Positions 16,996 to 57,576 of a DNA stretch of 64,000 nucleotides are shown here, piece by piece. Below the pieces are notes generated by a model. The model saw only the letters and a program-made list of their open reading frames with translations, was not told where the DNA came from and ran no database searches. How positions within the stretch are numbered: the first letter of the stretch is position 1; each line of letters starts with the position of its first letter. Source of the stretch: Daucus carota subsp. sativus (Eukaryota; Streptophyta; Magnoliopsida; Apiales; Apiaceae); contig NC_030386.2 in the NCBI RefSeq assembly GCF_001625215.2, positions 39,209,796-39,273,795 on the forward strand, read 5' to 3'. Made by a program: the position numbers and the translations under genes.

Positions 16996-19900
16996 TCATG
17001 AAGTAATGTATCTTCCCAATAACTTGACAGACGCGGCTAGTAAAAGCCACAATATAGCGAAAACTATACCAATAACGGAGAAACTAAACATTCCTCCAAC
17101 AAACTTTTGCACACGCCTCCGGGAGGTTGAAGTGGGGTTACCTGCGGGACATATAGTTTTCAACCTACCAAAGCTAGACATGCGCTCAAAAGCCTTATTT
17201 ACGAGAGCGTTTTCTGAAGCTGAAGCAGGGGTTGTAGGTATAGACTCCACAAAGGACCACAGAGCAGTAGTAAACCATGAGTCTGTACCGCCATCCTCTG
17301 TGCAGCTTTGATTTTGAATAGCTCCGGTATCCTCATTACATACACCTAAAACATATGATCAAAACTTGCTAATATTAGGACATTGTATATATAAGTAAAC
17401 AGGCGGAAGAGCTCTTGAATCCTGGCTCAAACCCCTCTTTCCCCACTTGGGCACGAGAGTTCTTGCCATGTGGAAGATGACATGGCATGTGAAAACCATC
17501 CATCTGACCAAGAGCTCTATAATGTTAGCATTACGCAGAAAAATTACTCAAATACAAAAATGTAATACAAATACAAGTATGTGGCCATGTATAATCTCAG
17601 TAACTAAAATATCGAAATATTATTGTACCATAATTTGGTTGAGAAGCAGGTGCATGATTTGTTTCCGGAGCGAAAAGGTCGTTTCTTTGTTCAGTTGCCC
17701 ATACTTGAGAACTCATCATATTCGCTTCATCATGGAAGGTGAACTCGTCATAGAAAGCAGTCCCATTCTCGACAGCATTTACATAAGAATGTGACACAAC
17801 ATTGGACATTCCCCCATCAGAAAAATGCAGCTGTGAAATTTGTTCTGGCCCACCTTGCCCCATATCTTGAAGGATCATATTTAAGTCATTGTAAATATCT
17901 GCTGCTGAAAATCCATCCATTTCATTGGATGATGGGGTATCTAGTGGTTTTTCAGAGTTTTGAACAGGTTCAGGACCAAGAAGATCATCCATTTCAAGAA
18001 AATCTTCAATGGAAATTTCACCCGACCCGTCTTCACCATTTTTCATACATGTGACGACCTCAGATGCTTGAATTGGTAATTGAGATGCAAGAGAGAGTGT
18101 GTGGTCAAAGCCAGCCTGCATATCTGAATTCGGGTAGTGGTGGGGAACCATGCTTTGATCAGGTAAACTTACATCCCCAGAGCAATGGTTTAACAATGTA
18201 CTTCCATTTTCTTTATCAGCAAATAATTGATCAAATGTGTACGAGCAAACATTGAGAGGGGGTTGATCAAACACAGTTTCATCTACAATCTTGTTTAAGA
18301 ACTCACCAATATCGTCTCCTTGATCCTGTGGCAATATAATACTTCTGGTACTGTCAATACAAGACGCATCAGCCTCCTTTGCAATATTTTGCTGGTCTAT
18401 TAAACCACTAAAACTCACACACTCGACATCAGCCCATTCCTCTTCTTTAAACGGTGCACCATATTCCTCACCATTCTTAGGACCGGGACCACTCTTTTTA
18501 TAAACCTTGTATAATACATAGTAATCCTGAGCAGAGGGACACCTTCTTAGCTCCTCTTCATCCAATGTATACTCGTGCATCACCCAGTCTGTGCGCTCAC
18601 CAGAAGGAGCACGCCCTTTGTAGTAAACCAGGGTCTTCTTCAGACCAACTGATCTTGAGTTGCTAGATATAGTCCGATCTTTACCAGTTGCTTTCCAGTA
18701 GCCATGCATGGTAGCCCGGTTTGATCTCCCTCCATTAGGATATTTCCTATCTCTAGGGCTCAAAAAGAACCATTGGCGATCTCCCGTCTTCAATTTTGAC
18801 AGCTCTGATAATAGGAGAAAAAGTATTAGTACTTTCAATACAATATTCCTTTCAGCAAATTTAATCCAAATCAACAAGAAATAGACTAATAACAAGCAGT
18901 AGAGTAGAGTCTAAGAATAACATCTTATAATGACTGTGTACACAGGAATAACCACCAATCCATAACACATAAATATAAAATTGTGCTACGTTAGTGCTTT
19001 GTTTCTCAAAAATGGAAAGATTCTATAAGCCCTGTATTGAACCAAAGATACAATATATAAGTATAGGAAGTTACTCAATTTAACCAAAAGTTTGAAATCA
19101 AATAATATAAACAACAGAGTCTCACTTGTACACCAACTTCAATAAACCATATCATCGATCTAGCTATATGAAAAACTGAACACATTACCACTTTAATCCA
19201 ATTCATAGCCGTAAACTTGTTGCAAGCAAATATACAGATAGTAGCCAAAAATACTCTCCAGCTACCTCCAATTCATAGCCAGAAACTTGTTAAAAGCAAA
19301 TATACATATAGTAGCCAAATACTCTCCAGCTACCGCCACAAAATCCAAAAATTCCATCAGACATAGAATATCAAATAGTATCTCCTAACCCAGAACCATA
19401 GCTAACCACCCGGTAATCCCCTCAGCACCGGTTGACAAGGGTAAGATGTACTCATGACTTAACTACACACTGACATCTAGCCTCTAGGAGTCTCACAAAT
19501 AACCAAAATAATTCAAAACAGTAATGTTGTGTTTGGTTGGGGAGAATGGAATGGAATGGAATGAAATGAGTAAAAATACTTAAAACTAATAGAGATAGGA
19601 AGAAAGTTTTGAGAAAAAATTAAGAGAGTGCAAAATTGCTATGATGAGATTTGTGAAGAAATTGAGGATAGGAGAGAATGGAGCATTCCATCTCAAATTG
19701 GAGGTGTGATATCTAGCCTATGATGTAAGAAATAGAATGGTAGAAGGAATGAAATTTTTTAAAAATTATGCATAAGGTAGTTCATTTTTCATTTCATTTC
19801 TTCCGCAATCATTCACCCCAACCAAACACAACATAAGTACATCATCACAAAAGAATACTATTATCAACCCACTAAACCCCCTGTCGAATCCACACAAAAA

Positions 19901-20297
19901 CCCGAATAATCAATCTCCAATCATCATCATAAACACCATAACCATCCAAACCAACTTATAACTCAAAACCCATAATCAGAAATTAGGCAATTAACATAAT
20001 TAACCTTGCAAAACATCATTAACCACAAAACACACAAATCAAGAAACACAAACAATATATAAACACAAAATCAAAGAAAACAACGAAAAGGGTACGTAAA
20101 TTACCAGGCAAATCATCAGGATCCCACTTGTAAACATCAGTCTCGGCAATAATATCAGGCTTCAATCGTCTCCGACAGATCTTACGCTTAAGATAATACA
20201 AAACAAGCTCTTCATCCGTGGGGTGGAATCTAAACCCTGGTGGAAACAACTTGGAACTAGAACCAGATGATGATCTGGATGATTTTACAACACCCAT
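16996..20297 (-). CDS. Membrane-tethered NAC transcription factor (NTL type)
   Basis: Exons 20105-20297, 17629-18804 and 16996-17345 join in frame to 572 residues. The N-terminal NAC domain is complete, with [43 protein letters not shown] and [10 protein letters not shown], the DNA-binding and dimer regions. A long acidic, Ser/Asn-rich activation region follows. Near the C-terminus (about residues 542-563) is one hydrophobic helix, [20 protein letters not shown], after an Arg-rich stop (STSRRR). This is the NTL layout: the factor stays in the ER or plasma membrane until it is released to the nucleus under stress (family knowledge). The start chosen is MGVVKSS, directly before the NAC domain. 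Intron 1 (1.3 kb) carries a Tourist MITE. Confidence 0.93.
19204..19335. repeat. Tandem duplication of about 65 bp in NTL intron 1
   Basis: Two adjacent copies share ATTCATAGCC, AAACTTGTT, AAGCAAATATACA and ACTCTCCAGCTACC with a few substitutions. The copies start near 19201 and 19269. Confidence 0.8.
19525..19833. mobile_element. Tourist-like (PIF/Harbinger) MITE in NTL intron 1
   Basis: The 309-bp element has perfect terminal inverted repeats TGTTGTGTTTGGTTGGGG and CCCCAACCAAACACAACA. It is flanked by TAA on both sides (19522-19524 and 19834-19836), the 3-bp target duplication of PIF/Harbinger elements. Confidence 0.9.
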
Positions 20298-21687
20298 GAT
20301 CACTCAAACACAACAAAAGAACCCAAAGTTTATGGGTGTGTCAGAGAGATATGGGAGAGAGATGGAAGAGAGAGAGATATGAGAGAGATGGAGGAGAGGG
20401 AGAAAGAGAGATTTGCGGGAGGGAGAGATTAGAGAGAGAGATTTGCGGGAGGGAGAGATTGAGGAGAGAGGGAGGGGTGAAGACTTGTGAAGTGTGTGAG
20501 TTGTGCAAGAGTGGGGAGAGATAGGTGGCTTGGTCAAAGAAGGGAAGTTGTAATGTAGGCTGATGAGAAGATTCCTAGAACTTGGAAATTTATGCTTTGT
20601 TTAGGTTTGCAAATCGTTAAATTCGCATTGTAAAGAGTGGAATGATAAAAGGTGAGTGTATTTGTTGACTTTGATTTATTTTATTATTTTTGTTGAAGAA
20701 AATATTTTGTTTGTAATTCGGTGACAAATTAAAGATATTAGAATTTGTGGCGTACTCTATAACTTGGACTAGTTCGTGCTTACCCAGATAATACAGTAAC
20801 TTATACAGTTGAAATTACTTTTGATTTTTACTAAAACGTGTGCCAGAGATGTCCTTGAATATAAATTTGTTTTTATTGTTTTATGTTTTATATCAGATAT
20901 TTTCGATTCTTGTTCTGATATAATATAAATATTCAGCATATTTAATGTTATTTAAAATCGATGCATTTCTTGAACTTTTCCAAATTAAATTTAGAATTTA
21001 CGTTTTATAAATTCAAAAAGTTAATAGTTAGCACATTTTTAAAATCGACCAAAACTAATTTTCTAATAATATAATTGACGTGCAAGAAGTATGTGTGTGT
21101 AAGCAGTGGTTCAGGTATCATTTTACGTAAAATTCCGAACCGATTCTAATTTAAAATCTTATAAATAATTTTAAAATTAATCATATTTATATATAAAATT
21201 TGATTCTAATATAAGATATTAATCACAAATAATGTGCATAAATTATTTAACTCTTGTAATTTGAATCAAAATTTTGGATTTTTAATTAGTTGAACTGTAG
21301 ACCATTATGTACAAATATGATTCTACAGGTTAAAATATTATGATTATTTTTTGATGGTTTTTTTAGAAAAATGATATATAAGTGTTTAAAGTACACGCAT
21401 GAGAGATTTCAGTGCAATTTTCTATTTTTCATTAAAAAATTTATTCCACAAAATACATATCGACAAAAAAAAAATCAATCTAATTTTAAAAAAATAAATG
21501 AGACGTTTAATATAAAACGGTTATGAGTATAAAAAAACGTACAGACATTAATGTACCGTGAAAAGGAGATTTTTTCCCAGCAATCCAATTTCAGTTCTAT
21601 TTATGACATTTATTTTATACTTTGTTATATTCATTTTATCCTCAAAAACCTAATCCTGACATTCTGTTATCGCCCCTTAATATAGTA
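20298..21687. other. NTL 5' leader and promoter, then AT-rich spacer
   Basis: 20340-20520 is a purine-rich (GA) low-complexity stretch on the + strand, so a CT-rich leader of the NAC mRNA. The remainder up to the Helitron end is AT-rich with no coding signal. Confidence 0.55.
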
Positions 21688-22134
21688 CTAGCCTATAGCA
21701 CGGGCGACCATATAATTTTAATGTGATTATTTATAAGCTTATTATCATTTTATTTGTGTTTTTTTACTAATTAAATAAAATGGTTTTAAATTATATTAGT
21801 CGATTCCATATGTGAATGTTTATTTATAAGCTTAATATAATTTTTTAGTGTTTTTTTATTAATTAAATAAAATGTTATTAAATTATATTAGTCGATTGGT
21901 TATATTCATTTTTGAAAGTTTGTCTTGTGGAATATTTTTCTATAATATAAAATATTAGTATTAACAATCAATTTGTTTTTTCATATGTGAATGTTTTCTT
22001 AATATTAATATATGATAATGTGGTTTTTGATTAATATTACCTCATATTATTCATATTTCATTACATAGCACTGAATACTATTGTATTTAAAAAAATTTAG
22101 TTATATTAAAATATTGAACTGAAATTGTTAGTTA

Positions 22135-23821
22135 TTGGAAAAAAAATCTATTCATTTAAAAATTTTAGTTATTAAATATGTGAATTTTTTTCTTAATATT
22201 ACTATATATGATAATATTGAAAAATGCTATGATTTTGAGCTCTTTGTTAATAACTGTATTGTTCTTTGTCTAATGTGGGGAGAAGGTGAAGTAAGAGAAT
22301 TTTTATTGTTGCGAACCACAAGATTCATAGTACAATTAGAAGTTCAAAAAGTTAATCTTGTTTTGTAAGCAGTAACTAATTCATAAATATATTAATTTGT
22401 TTTAAAATATAATAATTTATGTTTGTAAGTATATTCCGAATTTTGATATTAATGGGCTTGATTTTTTTTAGAAGATTTGTTTTCGAATAATTTGAGTGAT
22501 AAATCCCTATATTAACTCAAAAAAATCCAATCCAATGTATTCGAATATTAAAAATAGAACAAAATATGTGATGTTGCTAAAACAAATTATTTAAATATAG
22601 AAAATAGAACAAAAAATGTGAAGTTACAACAAATTTTAGAAAAACCATAGAAGCATGGTATCATTAATTAACCAGCAACATTTTGTAGTGGTAACCATAC
22701 TATCTTCCAACTCTACCACACTACTGATTTCTCTTCATTTTCTGCCAATCTAGAACTCCTGAGTTATACAGGCTACAATGTTGCTTTATATGGTACACCG
22801 AAGGTTGAGGGTTCTTTAGACATGGAGTCATAATTTTTGCACAAGAAAAACCGTGATGGTAAAGAACAGAAGAACTGTTATCATCTCCGCGCCATCTTAG
22901 TGGTAGTGGTAATGGATCATGTAATTATTTCAGCGGAGAATTCACCAATTTAAAGGAAGGCCTAGTGTGCATCACTCGCTGCCAAAAAAATGTAGCTTTT
23001 GAAGAAGAGGTGGTAGGAGTTGAATTCTATAGCTATTTAAAGACGCCAAGCTTTCTATACCTCTATCAAGGCATTAACACTCATTCATTCCAGCAGTAGA
23101 GCAGTCAAATATGTTCATAGGAGGCGAGAAAATCAACCTTATCAAATAACCTAAATTTTCCATTTATCATTTGCACACCATGTCGATTGTAGTGAAACAG
23201 TACCATGTCTGACTTAGCATATTTGCTACATGTATTACCTAGTTTCTTTCTCTCTTTAACAGTATGTTCCAACTTAATCTTGTATCTTGTCTGGTATTAA
23301 CCTTTAGAAAATGAAAAGACTTGGTGAAAACTTTCTGAATTGACAAAAATGTTGACTTATATCACTTGTCCTCCCTGTACTCTTAGAAATCTAACGCAGT
23401 GGCAGAGCAATGCGGCGTATCATCTTTAGAATGACTAATAAGATCATCATAGAAAATAGTTTGCTTATGTGTCACACATATATCATTGAAATAAAACAAA
23501 CAAAGTATATCAACTGATCAACAAAGACTAAATGGCACCCTTCTTGAACTCAAATATGTCTGGATCTAGTTATCTAGTTTGGTGGGAAAGAATAGAATGA
23601 ATATCAAAGGTTGGAGCTAAGTTCCGAAGAAAATTAGTGAAAAACGACATTGGAAAGGGTATAAATTATGGGATGGAAAGGGTATATTACTCATTGCAAA
23701 CAACAGCCGAATATCCAGATGCCAAAAAACATAATAAACTAAAATTTAATGGATATACAGAAAGAAAGTGTATGCCACTGCTTATATCTTGGCCAAACTG
23801 CAAGACTCTTGAATCAATGAG
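22135..23821. other. Helitron interior without recognised gene
   Basis: 22135-22650 is AT-rich; its open frames look like chance. 22680-23230 has more balanced composition and could be the 3' flank captured with NEP1 or a fourth, decayed fragment. No frame stays open long enough to identify. Confidence 0.35.
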
Positions 23822-24563
23822 TTACAGAATTTTCCATTTCCGTTCCAAAGCATTTGTGATCTTTGATATACAATATACCGTACTCAATGGGGAGCCAGAA
23901 ACTGAACAACCACGGTAGATATATAATTAATAAGGGGAAAAAACAGGACAGATGAGTTTGTTAAAATCCAATCATAGAGGATGCAATAATATACAAGTTC
24001 AAAACAACTTACTTGATATAAAATCGTCTACAAACTCCTTTTCAATTTTCCCATGGGCCATTGCACCAACCTGTTTACATAGGATTGGAGATGATAGTCA
24101 TACAGAATATCCCCCATAAGAAAATCAACAACCCTTTGACCTCTGAAACCCAATTTATACTCTTTGTAATCCATAAATTTATTTAAATTCTACTTCAGCA
24201 TATTTTACACTAAATATAAACAAAATTACACAATTTATCAATATTACAATCCTATCTTGAAATATAGTATATCATATATAAACAAATGTTAGAGTTCAGC
24301 TTCCTGAAACAAAAAAAAAAAAAAAAAAAAAGCAAAAGAGATTGTTTACCTATTCTGCGAGAGAGTTTACAGGCAATTACTTAAAAGCAGTAAGTGTACA
24401 CACAAACCCATCATCTAATCTTCCAAAATCTTATTAGAAAGAAAGGGTTTAAGCTACAAATAGTAACCTTGCCAACTTTAGCAACCCCCAAAGAAGCCCT
24501 TTCAAGTATAAAAATAACACCATTCTTCTTATCATCCTCGACTGCAGGTTGTGTTTTATCCAT
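23822..24563 (-). pseudogene. Captured NEP1/EMG1 (18S rRNA pseudouridine methyltransferase) with internal deletion
   Basis: Three exons join in frame at good splice sites: 24468-24563 (reads GVIFILERASLGVAKVGK), 24013-24070 (VGAMAHGKIEKEFVDDFIS) and 23822-23901 (ISGSPLSTVYCISKITNALE and the stop). The first matches the start of the SPOUT domain of NEP1, the other two its extreme C-terminus. Everything between, including most of the methyltransferase fold and the rRNA-binding surface, is missing. What remains is a 77-residue open frame with its own ATG and stop. It cannot be an active enzyme on what is known of the family. It lies inside the 7.7-kb Helitron. Confidence 0.85.
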
Positions 24564-25915
24564 AAAATAAGTGAATTACCAGCATAATAAGTGCATTGTT
24601 CAAATCGTTTTTGCTTTCAATAATAAATTATACAGCTAGAATGATTCCTATTTTTTGGTGTACATTGTGGTAAGAATTGTCCTCTTTTTTCTTAGTGATA
24701 TAATAAATTTTAGATTAAAACTATAAAGGGTTTGTGTTTTACTTTTTTGGAGCTGGATTTTCATAAAATTTATGGTACTTTGATTAACTGTTATTGTACC
24801 TGCTCAGATATTTTTGACCTTTATTTTCCAACAGTCAACCCCTCTAAGCAACACACTTAGGCACACAAAATGGAAACAATTTATAAGTTAAATCCTTGAG
24901 TATTAAAATTATAAAACTTGTCCTGTTTTTAGTAAAAGTTAAGCTTGTCCTGTTTTAAGTAAAAGTTAAGCAGAGTGTCTTGTCAGCAAATTAGAGGCCA
25001 GAACTTGGAATACAAAAAGCAACTATGAACACAAATATGAAATGGGTTATGTGGAAATTAGCTACACTTTTCTTCTTCTTTGCAATGGTTCCTGGTGCAG
25101 AATGTTGATTAACTAAACATTTACTGCAATTAACTTATGCTATTTCTGGATGGATTCAGCGGAATTTTTGATGGAATATTGCACTATACTACTATTTAAT
25201 TGTTAAATTTAAAATTTCCATTCCCCCTCCATTCTATACCTACAAATTTAAGGTAGACCTCAAACTCATTAATTTGAGAATGAAATTTCCATTCTTTTCT
25301 GTACTCAGGTTCTTCTCAAACCTCATCATAGAAATTTTGCACTATAATCTTTTTCACTCTTCATCCTACATCCTTTGCTGCTTATCTATATTTTTTTCAA
25401 CTTTTCATTTTGTTACCACCTCATTCCTTTCCTTCCAACCAAATGGGCTTTAGACTTTATGATGGAGCTGATAAGTCAAGTCATATAATGGTGAGTATCA
25501 AAGGTCATTCACAAACTCCATTATTTCTGGTCAGTATATAATCTGAGCCGGTTGATATTTAGGCCTACTTACAGGCTTCTTTTTTTTAAAACTTATTCAA
25601 TTAGGTCAAACCTACTTTAATTACAATATCTTCATATATTATAATTTAAACACATTTGTTGGGCCTATATATTTACATATATTAACGGGCCTAATAAAAT
25701 TATATTAATCCAAGGACATCCTTAAGACTAACATAAAAAAGTGAAATATTAAAAGTTAACAAATATATAGAGTGGTCTTCTATTATTGATGTCATATCTT
25801 AAGAGTGTAATTTCAGGTCTATGATTGTTGGAGGTGGGATTCTGAGAAAATGGATAAGATTAGTTGAAAAAAGATGTTAAGCAAGTCTTTTGTATTGGAT
25901 GGAGAAGATTGGTAC

Positions 25916-27141
25916 CTTGGACTTCTTGTGAAGCGTAAGAAGTGAAAGGCTGACTATCAGCTTTCTCAACATCTGCAGATGATCTTTTGGACCTTTTCTT
26001 CACTACAAAGAATGCAACCACGGCTCCAACAACTAAAATGGATATCACAATTCCTGCCACACCACCACCGCCTATACCTGATTTCTTGTATCCACCACCA
26101 TCTGATGAGTTTTTTTTGTCATTTTGTTTTCTATTTCGGTTGCTATTGCTGGATGGAGGAGTTCCAGGTGGAGGAGGTGGTGCTGGACCGGAACTCCATG
26201 AGTTGCCCTCTCTCCTGTTAAAATAATCATGTATGTACTGCTCAAAGATAAAATCCCCTACTTGATTAAGACCATTGTAAGACGATTGATGTGAGAATGT
26301 CTTACTGAATATTTATGTTTTTTAATCTTTCAGGAATCCAACCGCTGAAATGGTTATTTCAAATATTCCTGAGATTGTAGATACAATCAACTTATTAGTA
26401 CAACAATTGAAAACACTTTTTAAGTAATAGACTTGTATCACTCACAAATTATGCAGGGGAAGATTAGTAAGGACATCAATGGAGATTGTAAACTGGTTGT
26501 TTTGCAAATACCTGCACAACAAATATCTTTGAACACAACAAAAATCTTATAAATTTAGATACTAAAACTATGACAATATACTTACATATTGGCCATACTT
26601 GAAGGAGCGGTAAAACTTTCAGGAAGATCACCTATCATGGAATTAAAAGAGATATCCCTGGTTCAAGGAAGATTACATGTCATTGTGTCAAGGAAAAACT
26701 CAAATCCTGGCAAGTGAAAAATTGAAATGTCCTTGCAATGTAGATCAACAGAAAGCAAATTTCATGAGAGAAAGGTGGCCAATATGCTGCACTTTCGGTT
26801 CCCGGTATGAATGAATAAACAAAACTCAAATTTAGAAAAAAGTAAATCCATTCAAAAAAATCATAACGAAAGAACATTAACGTGTATGAAACTGGACAGG
26901 ACCAATCTTACAAATTAGAGAGAGCTGAAAGCGATCCAAACATGTCATTTAGCTGGCCCTGTAGTTGATTGCGACTAAGATTTTTGCACAGGAAAATAGA
27001 GCGGAAAAAAAAATCAATATCTAATTTTGTCCACTAAACAGAACTGGATAAAATAAGGAGGAAACTAACATGTTCTCGATCTTAGTCATTAGTGATATGG
27101 AATATGGGACACCGCCAGTGAAACCACATCCAGCGAGATTT
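25916..27141 (-). pseudogene. Captured STRUBBELIG-family receptor fragment (LRR, Pro-rich, membrane segment)
   Basis: Exons 27070-27141, 26912-26983, 26586-26657, 26446-26511 and 25916-26214. The first three are the 72-bp LRR exons typical of this family (NLAGCGFTGGVPYSISLM, LSRNQLQGQLNDMFGSL, DISFNSMIGDLPESF). The last codes [17 protein letters not shown], a [20 protein letters not shown] membrane helix and KKRSKRSS. The signal peptide, upstream repeats and the whole kinase domain are absent. The acceptor before the second exon reads CAA where CAG is expected, and the last exon lacks the LRR part that normally precedes NSW. It lies between the other two captured genes in the Helitron. Confidence 0.88.
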
Positions 27142-27403
27142 CTACATTAACAAGGAAGGTGTAAAAAATAATTACTCTCTGTGTCTAGGTAATGTGTTAA
27201 TCTGATGATTTTAAAGAAAGGGTTAATAACACCTTATAATACTTCATTATAAGGTCACATAGCCCATCTACCATAAGACGGAAAATCAAAAATATATTAT
27301 TAACAAATATTATGTCACATGTATGTGATACTATGATTACCTGATAGCATAAGCAATAGTACAAAATTAAAAATAATAATAATGCATAAGCTTCTCTCAT
27401 TAC

Positions 27404-29193
27404 CTAGAATATATTCAACATCTTCAACAAAACCCATCCTCAGCATTTCATCAGCTTCGTCAAGGACACGAAACTTTGATGAACTAAAATCAACATTTCC
27501 CCTTTCAATGTGATCCTATACAACAAAAATGACAAAAAGAAAAAAAAGTTTCAAGAGCAAAGTAGTGATAAATACCTACTTCACAAGCGAAATTGCCATG
27601 TATTACTAGGGTTGCACAAATTAAAAACAAAGTACCTTTATACGACCAGGTGTTCCCACAACTATATCAACCCCTCTCTTCAGCTGTATTTGCTGATTGT
27701 TGTAGGGTGCTCCACCATACAAACAGACCGAATTTAGCTCCAAAGACCCACCATAGACTTCGAAATCTGCAGCCACCTACCATAAAAGAAAAGGGTAAAC
27801 ACAAATTGAACCGACAAAATATGAGTTAAAAAATGGCCCAGTAAAATTAGAAGTTCCATGGAACAGTATCCACACATAATACCTGTGTTGACAACTCCCT
27901 TGTGGGTAATAGCACGAGTACACTTGGAGATCTCCCATCACCAGTCTTTCGAGATGTTTTTAAGGCTCCGTTTGTTAAGGACTCCAATATGGGTAACACA
28001 AACGCCAAGGTTTTACCCTAAAAAATGGAAAGAAAATGAAGCCAGACAGCCACTTTGGCATAAGTAGAAAAAGATCAACCAGAATAAACCCCAAAAAATT
28101 AAACTTAAAAATTACTCAAGTTATATTGAATATATATCAATGCTCTGTCTCACTTCATAACAACATCCAGAAGCTGTTAAGTGTACTTTAAAAATTGTTT
28201 TTTCTACACCTTAGTCTTTCCTATACATTCTTTTCTTAACAAACCACTATATTTAGAGTTCTGGAAAATTGATTCTCGAGAACATCAGACTTCTCACAAA
28301 GTCAATTTAATCCCACAAAATTTGAATTTTATATATCCATGCGAAGATAGCAAAATGCAGCCTCGCAAATTCTTCACTCAATCATTGTTAAACCTAAGTA
28401 ATCCGTGCCCATCAACTGGTGCAAGATTCTAAAAATTGCCAAAATTAAACTAAATGTTGCTTCTTATGACAATAAAGTTGATCCTTATTAACACTACATT
28501 ACTACATTTAATAATAATAATAAATGAAGAAACTAATTGGGCAAAACTACAAAGCCCGAATGGAATAATCTTGGTGAGAGGAGACAATTAAAGTTCAACT
28601 TGCCCCCCAAATTTGTGTGGCTCCCATTTCATACAAATTCACAAAGTTTCTACTATCGTCCTCCAAGTTTCAACCACCACAAAACAATTTAACTTTGTAC
28701 CCAATAACTCACAAACCAAACCTCCAATTTCGGGCAAATTTGCACACAAATTCATTCTAAACTACAAATACAAGATATAAATGCTATCAAATAGTATCAA
28801 TAATTAAAAGTATAATTACCTGACCAGTCCGAGCTCTCCCAACTAAATCAGTCCCATCAAGAATTGTATCAAACGTCATCGCCTGAATCGGAAACAACGC
28901 CTCAATCCCATTCTCCCTCAACGGCTTCGAAATGCATTCGGATTCTCCTCCTTCACCTCCTCCTCCACCTTCATCTTCTTCACCTTCTTCCTACTCTTCT
29001 CCTCCCCAGAGCTCACATCACTCCTATCCTCTTCCTCCTCAATCACCTTCCGCTTCTTCTCCTTCTCCTCCTCCTTCTTGCTCTTCTCCTCCGAATCATC
29101 GAACACAAACTCCTCGGAATAAGAATCGCTCTTCTTGCTCTTCTTCTTCTCCTTCTTCACGCTTCTGTTCTCGATAGAAGAGTCTGTTTCCAT
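27404..29193 (-). pseudogene. Captured DEAD-box RNA helicase RH7-type, exons 1-4 only
   Basis: Exons 28820-29193, 27883-28017, 27636-27776 and 27404-27515. The N-terminus is the Lys/Glu-rich nucleolar tail of the RH7 group. Helicase motifs follow in order: GRARTGQGKT (Walker A, split by intron 1), LPTREL (Ia), GTPGR (Ib) and DEAD within [10 protein letters not shown] (Walker B). The sequence stops at FVEDVEYIL, so SAT and all of RecA domain 2 are missing. A frameshift near 28930-28934 separates ENPNA from ISKPLRENGIEALFP. The truncated copy cannot unwind RNA. It is the first captured gene inside the Helitron; its ATG lies 236 bp from the element's 5' end. Confidence 0.9.
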
Positions 29194-29429
29194 GGCGGAG
29201 ATGAAGAGAGAGAGAGAGGGATATGTTGATAGGCTCTTGTACGGTGCTGTAGTTAGGGGGCTGTTAAAGTCCAACTCTGCTGGGAAATAGAGTCCTGACA
29301 GGAGACAGGCTTTTAAACATTAGTACAGCGTCGAGACTGAAACCAAAAAATGTGACGAAACCAAAAAATATGAACAAAAAGTAGGACTACAAATTATACC
29401 CATGTTGGCTTATTATAGTATAGTATAGA

Positions 29430-29883
29430 TTAAAGAAAAATACTTCCCACCGTATCAAAACAAACTAACAAACAAAACCGCTTTAACCAATCAGTGGTGT
29501 CGCCAATTTTTTTCCAGCATTTTCCAGCTACTGTGGCTACAATATTTGGTCTAAGTCTTTTAAATCTCATTCAAAACTCCCAACTTCACATATCAATCAG
29601 CAAGCATCTCTTGTTCTCCATCTTGTAAGTCTCTGCGTTCACATTTTTCTACTTGCAATACATTTTCAATGCTTAGACCGCCAGACATCATGTTAAGTTA
29701 TCAGTTCTTTTGACAACCTCGGGATGTCATAGAAATGATTTAATTCCGTATTATTATATTAAACAATTTGAAATGTTAGTTTGCTTAGGATTTCACATGT
29801 AGATCTTGACATATGTGTTATATTAATTTCAGAAACCTGAAGTTGAAATTGAGAGTTTGGAACTGGTAATTGAAACACAAGTG
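29430..29883 (+). promoter_or_regulatory. Short promoter and leader of the sphingoid-base hydroxylase, bounded by the Helitron
   Basis: A likely leader intron runs from the donor at about 29626 (CTTGTAAGT) to the acceptor at 29831 (TTTCAG). That leaves less than 200 bp between the Helitron end and the first exon. Confidence 0.5.
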
Positions 29884-30993
29884 ATGGTGTTCTGGGAAGA
29901 GTATGTGAGTGATGAAACAATGGGAACATATGCCCCAATTGTGGTCTACTGGTTGTACTCGGGGTTTTATCAGATGTTGTCGCCACTCGACAATTACAGG
30001 CTACACACTAGAAAGGAAGAGAGTGAAAAGAATGTGGTGCCATTGTCGTCTGTTATCAGAGGTGTTCTGATTCAACAGCTTGCTCAGGTTGTCGTTGCAC
30101 AGGCTTTGTTTATGGTTAGTGTTCTTGTTACATTTTTTTAATTTTGCTAATTTTGTCGCGCTTTGTTGATGCATAGATGAATGTGTATTGTGTTGCGTAT
30201 ATGAACCATTGCTGCTAATTGGCAGATATATAGTATATGAAAGGGCTCAAAAACAGACCTGAGTAGTCCTGGTGACGGAATTTCAGAACTTGTTGCAGTC
30301 GATGTCTTTGTATCTGTTCCGTGTATAAAAATTGAACTAAGTTCCGGCAAATGCTTCTCTTAGATCTTCTACACAAAATGATCCAGCCCTTCCTTTGTAA
30401 CCGATGATTTAGGCATAATAATTTCGTGTCCTTTGCTGCAGCTGACCAGAGAAGTGAGTTCATCAGGAAGCATAGTTCAGCCTGTTCAGCAAACCCTAGT
30501 CATCCAAATTCTGCAAATTATAGTTGCAACGCTTGTCATGGACACTTGGCAATACTTTGTACACCGATACATGCACCAGAACAAATTTTTGTACCGCCAT
30601 ATCCACTCCCAACACCATAGACTGGTTGTCACTTACGCAATTGGGGCGCTCTACAATCACCCGCTTGAGGGTCTCCTGCTCGATACTGTTGGCGGGGCCA
30701 TCTCTTTCCTTGTATCCGGAATGACTGCCAGAACAGCTGTGGCATTCTTTTGCTTTGCTACTATAAAAACGGTAGATGATCATTGTGGATTATGGCTGCC
30801 TGGTAATGTCTTCCATCTGATTTTTCAAAACAACACTGCCTATCATGATGTTCATCATCAACTTCAAGGTACGAAGTACAACTATTCACAACCTTTCTAC
30901 CCTATCTGGGATCTGCTGCTTGGAACCCATATGCCTTACCGTCTTGTAAAGAGACCCGAAGGAGGCTTTGAGGCAAGGTTGATGAAAGACTGA
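29884..30993 (+). CDS. SBH: Sphinganine C4-monooxygenase (sphingoid-base hydroxylase)
   Basis: Exons 29884-30114 and 30442-30993 join in frame to 260 residues, the usual length of the plant enzyme. It belongs to the fatty acid hydroxylase superfamily of di-iron membrane oxygenases and adds the C4 hydroxyl to dihydrosphingosine, making phytosphingosine in the ER. All His clusters are present: HRYMH (118-122), HSQHH (132-136) and HDVHH (212-216). Hydrophobic segments lie at the N-terminus and around residues 70-115 and 160-185. An upstream in-frame TTG is not used as a start; MVFWEEYVSDE is the family start. The gene looks intact and sits close to a Helitron end. Confidence 0.95.
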
Positions 30994-34246: not shown

Positions 34247-38586
<4,340 letters not shown>

Positions 38587-44483: not shown

Positions 44484-45131
44484 GCATGGCTGAAGCTGAA
44501 GTCTCGGCCTACAAATCTACCCAATTCAGCTTCTGCCTAAAAAAAGAGATTCAGGGAACTTTTGAGAACGTGAAAACATTTTGGGGTACTTAAAAGATTT
44601 TCTTAATGAGTACATGCCAAACAAAAGTTTAGATGCTTTCCTATTTGGTTAGCCACAAGTCCTGAACTTTATATTTATGGGACTTTTCTTTCATGAGTGA
44701 AATTAATATACTGAAATTTGAGATGGCAAAAACCTTGCTAGATTCAAAGCTAAGTATGCTGTTGAATTGCAACAAGATCTGACATCATAATAGGAGTAGC
44801 TCGAGGGCTTCTCTATCTTCGTCAAAATTCTAGATTGAGAATCATTCATAGATATATGAAAACAAGCAACATTTTACTAGACGCCGAGATGAGACCTAAG
44901 ATTTCTGACTTTGGCTTGGCAAGAATTGTCGGAGGAGAAGACACAAAACCTACGACCACCAGAGTTACGGGAACCTAGTAAGTACATCAGTAATAATACA
45001 ATAGCATAAGCTGAAGTAATGTAGTTTGGTGGCATGAAAACACTTCTGCGGCAGAACTTCTTCCTCCACTAAACCAGACAGAGTCCAGTAATGAAACAAC
45101 ATTTTCAGCAGAGGACGGTTTGCCAGGGATT
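44484..45131 (+). pseudogene. Broken receptor-kinase copy, opposite strand to the intact gene
   Basis: 44605-44650 matches the end of kinase exon 4 of the 34-38 kb gene ([11 protein letters not shown]). The following intron sequence is also conserved, and 44741-44980 matches exon 5 ([32 protein letters not shown]). HRD has become HRY, and frameshifts and stops interrupt the start of exon 5. 45060-45120 resembles the last exon (PPLNQTESSNETTFSAEDG against the intact gene's NNEITFSVEDG); exon 6 is missing. 44484-44590 duplicates a segment from below the intact gene. It is a dead paralogue. Confidence 0.85.

Positions 45132-51603: not shown

Positions 51604-57576
<5,973 letters not shown>

Follow-up and report, generated by a model that had tools for sequence, protein, structure and literature searches.

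The window analyzed here is a 64,000-nucleotide stretch of the carrot genome (Daucus carota subsp. sativus, assembly GCF_001625215.2, contig NC_030386.2, positions 39,209,796 to 39,273,795), and positions given without a contig label refer to it. It carries a 7,742 bp element at 21688..29429, with a host A on one side and a host T on the other, that is best read as a non-autonomous Helitron copy containing pieces of host genes. The element and all of its parts described below lie on the minus strand. The 5' boundary was located to the base as A|TCTATACTATAC at 29430|29429 and the 3' boundary as GGCTAG|T at 21688|21687, where the element ends ...GCCCGTGCTATAGGCTAG|T. The TC 5' end preceded by a host A and the CTRR-type 3' end followed by a host T that are required of a Helitron are both present. 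The first-pass annotation, made from the letters alone, had called both ends readable to the base, and genome searches back both. The host flanks, joined as an empty site, read ...TTAATATAGTA|TTAAAGAA.... In 200 dinucleotide shuffles of the window the chance expectation was 0.01 for the 13-letter string A|TCTATACTATAC and likewise 0.01 for the 3' string CCCGTGC..CTAGT; chance would supply the short core A|TCTATAYTA 0.9 times, so that by itself this core proves nothing. No target-site duplication was found at the element ends (that of Pack-MULEs is 9 bp), the insertion lying between an A and a T.

Family comparison defines the two ends of the element. The Helitron 5' segment, starting A|TCTATACTATACTATAATAAGCC, occupies 29198..29429, and its first 85-170 bp recur at family copies that lack the helicase piece described below. 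The 3' family segment (21688..22306) contains a subterminal tandem repeat with units at 21749-21821 and 21841-21913, and it closes with the terminus GCCCGTGC-TATAGGCTAG|T at 21688..21706, which is 11 nt shorter than that of the sister copies. The repeat (21749-21913) has a 73-nt unit and a spacing of 92, and alignments suggest that sister copies also have it.

Between these ends lie, in order, pieces of an RH7-type helicase, a STRUBBELIG-RECEPTOR-FAMILY (SRF) gene, EMG1/NEP1, and RAPTOR, all on the element's own strand, with canonical introns in the first three. Searches for their sources covered 441,086,747 bases in 11 contigs, of which C1-C9 are labels used here. The captured RH7-type DEAD-box helicase DNA (27208..29197) comprises exons 1-4 with introns. 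It matches the Pfam DEAD domain with an E value of 3.1e-37, and its best solved relative is 'Nucleolar RNA helicase 2'. The donor, C6:37396334-37398145, lies on the same contig at a distance of about 1.8 Mb and aligns to window 29197..27208 with 89-92% BLAST identity. The capture begins within the open first exon of the donor (CGCC|ATGG), whose frame is open upstream (MSPEIL..); thus, no RH7 promoter came along. Exon 1 has lost 16 bp and 12 bp relative to the donor, and the 16-bp loss shifts the frame. The left RH7 breakpoint (..CCGCCATGG) is identical in the window and in a sister copy at C7:35325726-35332626. Short homology at this junction was considered and rejected: the Helitron side reads ..ATCTC|GGCG, as judged from an inner 5' end in the C7 sister, and the donor reads ..GA|CGCCATGG. 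The junction between the RH7 and SRF pieces (27173..27207) includes about 27 bp that also precede SRF at C4:29919502, a copy without RH7.

The SRF piece (25549..27172) has six exons, one of which (19 residues) was added by eye, and encodes leucine-rich repeats (LRRs), a proline-rich part, and a transmembrane segment. No kinase domain was found in it. The donor at C5:306693-308028 aligns to window 27172..25549 with about 93.5% identity over the main part. In the fifth exon a donor GGA is a TGA stop in the window, and all five other copies readable there have GGA. The donor locus runs on into later SRF-like sequence, LRPPPADRHKSFDEDD, which we take to be SRF. Against solved structures the whole piece placed STRUBBELIG-RECEPTOR FAMILY 6 third, after two long LRR kinases that match it multiply, and when the last two exons are taken by themselves, SRF6 is their sole match (E 2.1e-11). 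The adjoining internal DNA at 24543..25548 is unassigned; it is shared as far as 25319 with C4:29919502 and as far as 24981 with C5:25973891 and C1:28976590.

The EMG1/NEP1 piece (23620..24542) contains part of exon 1 and the last two exons, with E values of 4.4e-7 in Pfam and 3.7e-8 against solved NEP1. Its middle is gone: about 0.87 kb of the donor is missing, and the breakpoint at 24376 is common to the window and the C7 sister. On paper the shortened gene splices to an open frame of 77 amino acids, the first residues of which are not derived from EMG1. The donor lies at C4:29028832-29030569, where N-terminal, middle, and C-terminal exons were seen by a check short of the full gene, and a paralogue at C4:47860368-47862145 is of nearly equal similarity.

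A fourth piece, missed by the first-pass annotation, corresponds to the N-terminal part of the TORC1 subunit RAPTOR and is a pseudogene at about 22499..23343. It matches Pfam Raptor_N (E 2.8e-8), and its broken frames, joined with X at the stops, match 'Regulatory-associated protein of TOR 1' with an E value of 5.9e-17. There are seven stops and two frame changes over 137 aligned residues. The corresponding match, C4:29027579-29028388, is directly beside the EMG1 donor, and the donor region (C4:29027.4-29030.6 kb) is collinear with window 24381..22499, so the piece was probably captured together with EMG1. A lesser match lies at C4:29020628-29021015 (79-85%). RAPTOR is more decayed than the other pieces (Fisher p 1.6e-5), which could suggest that it was captured first. 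This idea was rejected: most of the degenerate stretch aligns at 88-93% or better to the donor copy beside EMG1, so the piece was in all likelihood a pseudogene before its capture. Separately, a 57-nt part of RAPTOR (window 23197-23141) recurs at 98-100% at C7:34275307, C6:25081008, C3:46932178, and C3:52499145, and three of these four places have a family 5' end less than 6 kb away.

At one donor, EMG1 and the dead RAPTOR stretch are immediate neighbors, so that the cargo amounts to four gene pieces from three donor loci. The first-pass annotation had described the interior as RH7 exons 1-4, SRF exons, and a shortened NEP1, all with introns and from three unrelated genes. All three occur in the order given there. 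RAPTOR was overlooked, and the number three holds for the donor loci and not for the genes. Aligning the captured exons to parent genes elsewhere located RH7 on C6, SRF on C5, and EMG1 on C4. The donor stretches (L034, L041, L050, L051, L055, and L056) contain neither terminus by exact pattern. A six-frame Pfam scan of the element detected no gene pieces on the opposite strand, within the reach of a scan that overlooks some short exons, among them those of EMG1 and the LRRs; the element may therefore contain further small pieces.

The ends of the element recur throughout the genome. In the 5'-end search 40 of 1,463 candidates were scored, the window among them, and 32 of the 40 matches begin at query positions 29-35, the terminus being position 32. 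The remaining eight are the window itself and seven that begin at 20-27 or 39. Among the 19 distinct family 5' ends displayed, counting the window, 14 have the exact A|TC start, and their 12-nt flanks differ. The other five are the outer end of L037, which has an expanded start, and the ends at L012, L013, L033 (inner), and L037 (inner), which lie downstream of another 5' end in the same copy. The exact hairpin-CTAG|T string occurs 424 times genome-wide, compared with 0 for the reversed control. The search for the termini of sister copies thus recovered what is required of a Helitron: copies scattered through the genome that share their ends but not their flanks. The exact 5'-end pattern had 0 matches in viral and genome contig collections. 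Four IMG/VR contigs with GCCCGTGCTATAGGCTAGT were considered as Helitrons and rejected, because what these contigs have in common is one GC-rich stretch unlike the element.

One pair of copies, C1:34514786-34523259 and C8:12099955-12108428 (L043, L044, L058, and L059), is nearly identical. Each is 8,474 bp by its coordinates, and their 5' parts, aligned over 3,497 bp, differ at one position. The match begins at the A of A|TC and the flanks differ. At the 3' end, a 726-bp alignment contains only two mismatches, both of which, by reading, fall just past the CTAG terminus. This near-identity indicates that the Helitron family moved recently.

Other members carry pieces of other genes in the element's direction, and none was detected on the opposite strand. 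Pfam scans of both strands identified a sulfate-permease piece in L036 and ribosomal S24e and DUF632 pieces in L037 (C3:48096300-48105000); L038 has pieces of ribosomal protein SA, seen as three ordered matches that each fall below the Pfam cut-off. Counting three capture events in the window and those in the further members, seven of seven are in sense, which has a probability of 1 in 128 if both orientations are equally likely. The events are few, their independence is assumed, and L033 and L039 were left out because they share the cargo of the window. Sister copies that share the ends of the element, and donors that lie elsewhere, support its reading as a non-autonomous Helitron that captured pieces of several genes in its own direction.

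The sister copies were compared for the order of capture. SRF DNA was found in the window and in eight other places besides the donor, two of which (C7:40899402 and C9:30791816) were examined only in part. In five of the eight it stands behind a family 5' end with no RH7 match. Two of these five, C5:25973891 and C1:28976590, carry SRF, EMG1, and RAPTOR; the other three, C1:34523264, C8:12099954, and C4:29917616, carry SRF and have no EMG1 or RAPTOR match listed, the 57-nt piece lying elsewhere in the family. Only two family copies with RH7 are known. The second of them, the C7 sister, consists of an outer 5' end, RH7, an inner 5' end, SRF, EMG1, and a 3' end; no RAPTOR match was found in it. 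Its RH7 part encloses about 2.3 kb of unidentified DNA and continues through exons 5 and 6 to ...GATCTTGTTGGTA, directly after which comes the inner 5' end CTATATATATATACTATAATAAGCC; the RH7 donor at this point reads ...GGTAATGAAAA. The window copy has no inner 5' end between RH7 and SRF, and its RH7 ends at 27208. The first-pass annotation was right that the window holds RH7 exons 1-4, but this is probably the remnant left by a later deletion, since the C7 sister holds RH7 into exon 6. Inner 5' ends are apparently also present in L037, C6:20291622/20294947, and C1:20692184/20688842. Those of the C6 and C1 copies have the same 12-nt flank, which suggests that such stacks may move as one unit.

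These data make it very probable that the element is a non-autonomous copy of a multi-copy Helitron family that has repeatedly picked up pieces of host genes at the DNA level. Capture looks stepwise. The ancestral element would have contained SRF DNA and one EMG1-psiRAPTOR segment, parts of which were later lost in some copies. One lineage would then have gained a second 5' end, together with RH7, stacked before the old one. This could have come about by nesting, if the older Helitron once landed in a copy of RH7 and transposition later proceeded from an outer 5' end as far as the inner 3' end, or else by template switching. In the lineage of the window, RH7 exons 5-6 would afterward have been deleted along with the inner 5' end, which produced the present arrangement, and further small changes would have cost the window copy its hairpin arm and reading frames. 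Movement would have been by rolling-circle transposition with RepHel supplied in trans, as is established for Helitrons. A broader proposal is that the family adds most of its cargo on the 5' side, each gain placing a further 5' end before a complete older Helitron, and keeps only sense pieces, with the C7 copy as a preserved intermediate. We regard this generalization as tentative, a possibility with somewhat more against it than for it.

The 3' end of the window copy differs from those of its relatives. A 3' hairpin is a textbook feature of Helitrons. The sister 3' ends read CCCGTGC-TTC-GCACGGG-TTATAGGCTAG|T, and the window copy is without the 11 nt TTCGCACGGGT that form the loop and the right arm of the hairpin. 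All 14 sister 3' ends that were read keep the hairpin, 11 with a perfect 7-bp stem and three with 6 bp (L028, L029, and L032); 11 of the 14 were the best-scoring 3' matches, so they are not a random sample. The 3' end of L032 is CTAA. Folded as RNA, a sister end reached -16.0 kcal/mol, compared with -2.7 kcal/mol for that of the window copy, and the 3' stretch of L022 folded as DNA gave a z of -2.4. A scan for hairpins before CTRRT found none at the 3' end of the window copy, which is probably now immobile.

Several observations weigh against this account of the element and its history. The window copy has no hairpin about 10 nt before its 3' end (z +0.74; 153 of 200 shuffles were equal or better), and its membership in the Helitrons follows from the family to which it belongs and not from a hairpin of its own. 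Weak 3' folding is described for 16 of 35 maize Helitrons (PMC2575219). Pfam detected no RepHel in the six frames of the element, nor in three other members (L036, L037, and L038). The left RH7 junction is without clear microhomology, and the inner 5' end of the C7 sister lacks a perfect TC start. Kimura two-parameter distances between window and donor are 0.037 and 0.044 for two parts of RH7 and 0.046 for SRF, and those between the window and C7 RH7 parts are 0.056 and 0.030; the similar donor distances of RH7 and SRF do not order the captures. The SRF tree separates the window and C7 copies only weakly (53-62, with 90-93 for the other clade), so that the tree would allow a loss of RH7 from the other copies; the inner 5' end in the C7 sister disfavors such a loss. 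Several SRF-bearing copies are without EMG1-RAPTOR, so that segment may have been captured before or after SRF. Its presence on both sides of the split in the SRF tree makes losses in some copies the simplest reading. Differences from the donor that are shared among copies (37 columns in RH7 part 2 and 23 in SRF) include changes in the donor lineage, and for this reason shared breakpoints, and not these columns, were used as evidence of single capture.

The same Helitron could have acquired RH7 by 3' read-through (3' transduction) instead of at its 5' side, which we consider unlikely. Such capture has been demonstrated for Helraiser and is commoner when the hairpin is deleted (PMC4778049). Here, RH7 occupies the 5' side of the element and is flanked in the C7 sister by two 5' ends. 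The outer 5' segment joins RH7 directly, and no family 3' pattern lies between that segment and RH7. Among the 15 ends read, hairpin loss is confined to the window copy, and it therefore cannot have caused the older captures.

It is quite improbable that the element encodes something useful, such as the 77-amino acid shortened EMG1 or a chimeric transcript. The EMG1 frame is open on paper, and maize Helitrons yield chimeric transcripts (PMC4528327), but the RH7 frame is broken, SRF is stopped, EMG1 has neither its middle nor its own start, RAPTOR is full of stops, and no RH7 promoter was captured. The exon shuffling that the first-pass annotation saw in the element finds no support as the making of a new working gene, because the pieces are broken. 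Gene models named 'RH7', 'SRF', 'NEP1', or 'RAPTOR' inside such elements can be dead fragments, which is a warning for annotators.

A gene graveyard built by ordinary segmental duplications, with Helitron-like ends by chance, is hardly credible. The adjacency of the EMG1 donor and the RAPTOR pseudogene does mean that at least one block was duplicated as such, but copies on different chromosomes share exact start and stop points within different flanks, and one pair has the single mismatch in 3,497 bp. A Pack-MULE or other terminal inverted repeat (TIR) transposon with captured gene pieces has next to nothing to recommend it: TIR-type elements in plants also carry gene pieces (PMC8903248; PMC13317346), but the two ends of the element are not inverted repeats of each other (2 of 20 positions match), no target-site duplication flanks them, and the family ends are TC...hairpin-CTAG between A and T.

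The multi-copy Helitron family favored here is of a kind already known, and its capture history is the interesting part. Gene acquisition by Helitrons is still argued, with read-through, template switching, and nesting as candidates. In this family the donors are identified, one copy with two stacked 5' ends seems to preserve an intermediate, and a pair of copies is nearly identical, so that the order of capture and the junctions can be read directly. No report was found of a published Helitron with STRUBBELIG or RAPTOR1 cargo, or with these terminal letters, in a search that excluded supplementary files. The closest parallel is maize, where stepwise capture and multiple termini were explained by nested elements (Dong et al. 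2011, PMC3288121). Maize helA shares with the carrot family an A|TC 5' end, a hairpin of the CCGT..CGCACGG type followed by CTAGT, stepwise capture, and multiple termini, and one captured piece in helA was inserted 25 bp from the 5' end. In contrast to helA, the loci examined here had 0 matches to the strict helA 3' pattern, and the inner pseudo-terminus is a 5' end before older cargo, whereas the pseudo-termini described for maize are mainly 3' and the form with two 5' ends is a hypothesized remnant (PMC3288121). Helraiser and HelibatN3 resemble the carrot family as hairpin-terminated rolling-circle elements that move host sequence (PMC4778049). Helraiser differs in that its capture is by 3' read-through, whereas RH7 is at the 5' side here and no RepHel was seen in the element. 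In carrot, a 17-kb Helitron in an EX1-like gene at the Y2 locus is likewise a Helitron insertion, polymorphic among accessions, in apparently the same assembly (PMC10581907). The 19 kb that surround the reported single-nucleotide polymorphism (L062-L063, C7:39178000-39197000) revealed no link to it: they contain no termini of the present family and match its 3' segment just once, weakly, over 66 bp (E 7e-4).

The element is inserted between a NAC transcription factor gene (17600-20303, minus strand) and a fatty acid hydroxylase gene (30382-30993, plus strand). Its 5' end is about 1.1 kb before the Pfam-matched part of the hydroxylase gene, and the element may affect this neighbor. Rfam and tRNA scans gave nothing of use. 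Elsewhere in the window, inverted repeat arms at 34876-35289 and 44583-44991, about 9.5 kb apart, are 80-87% complementary. A 12-bp tandem repeat array at 55209-55700 has identical central units and is open on both strands.

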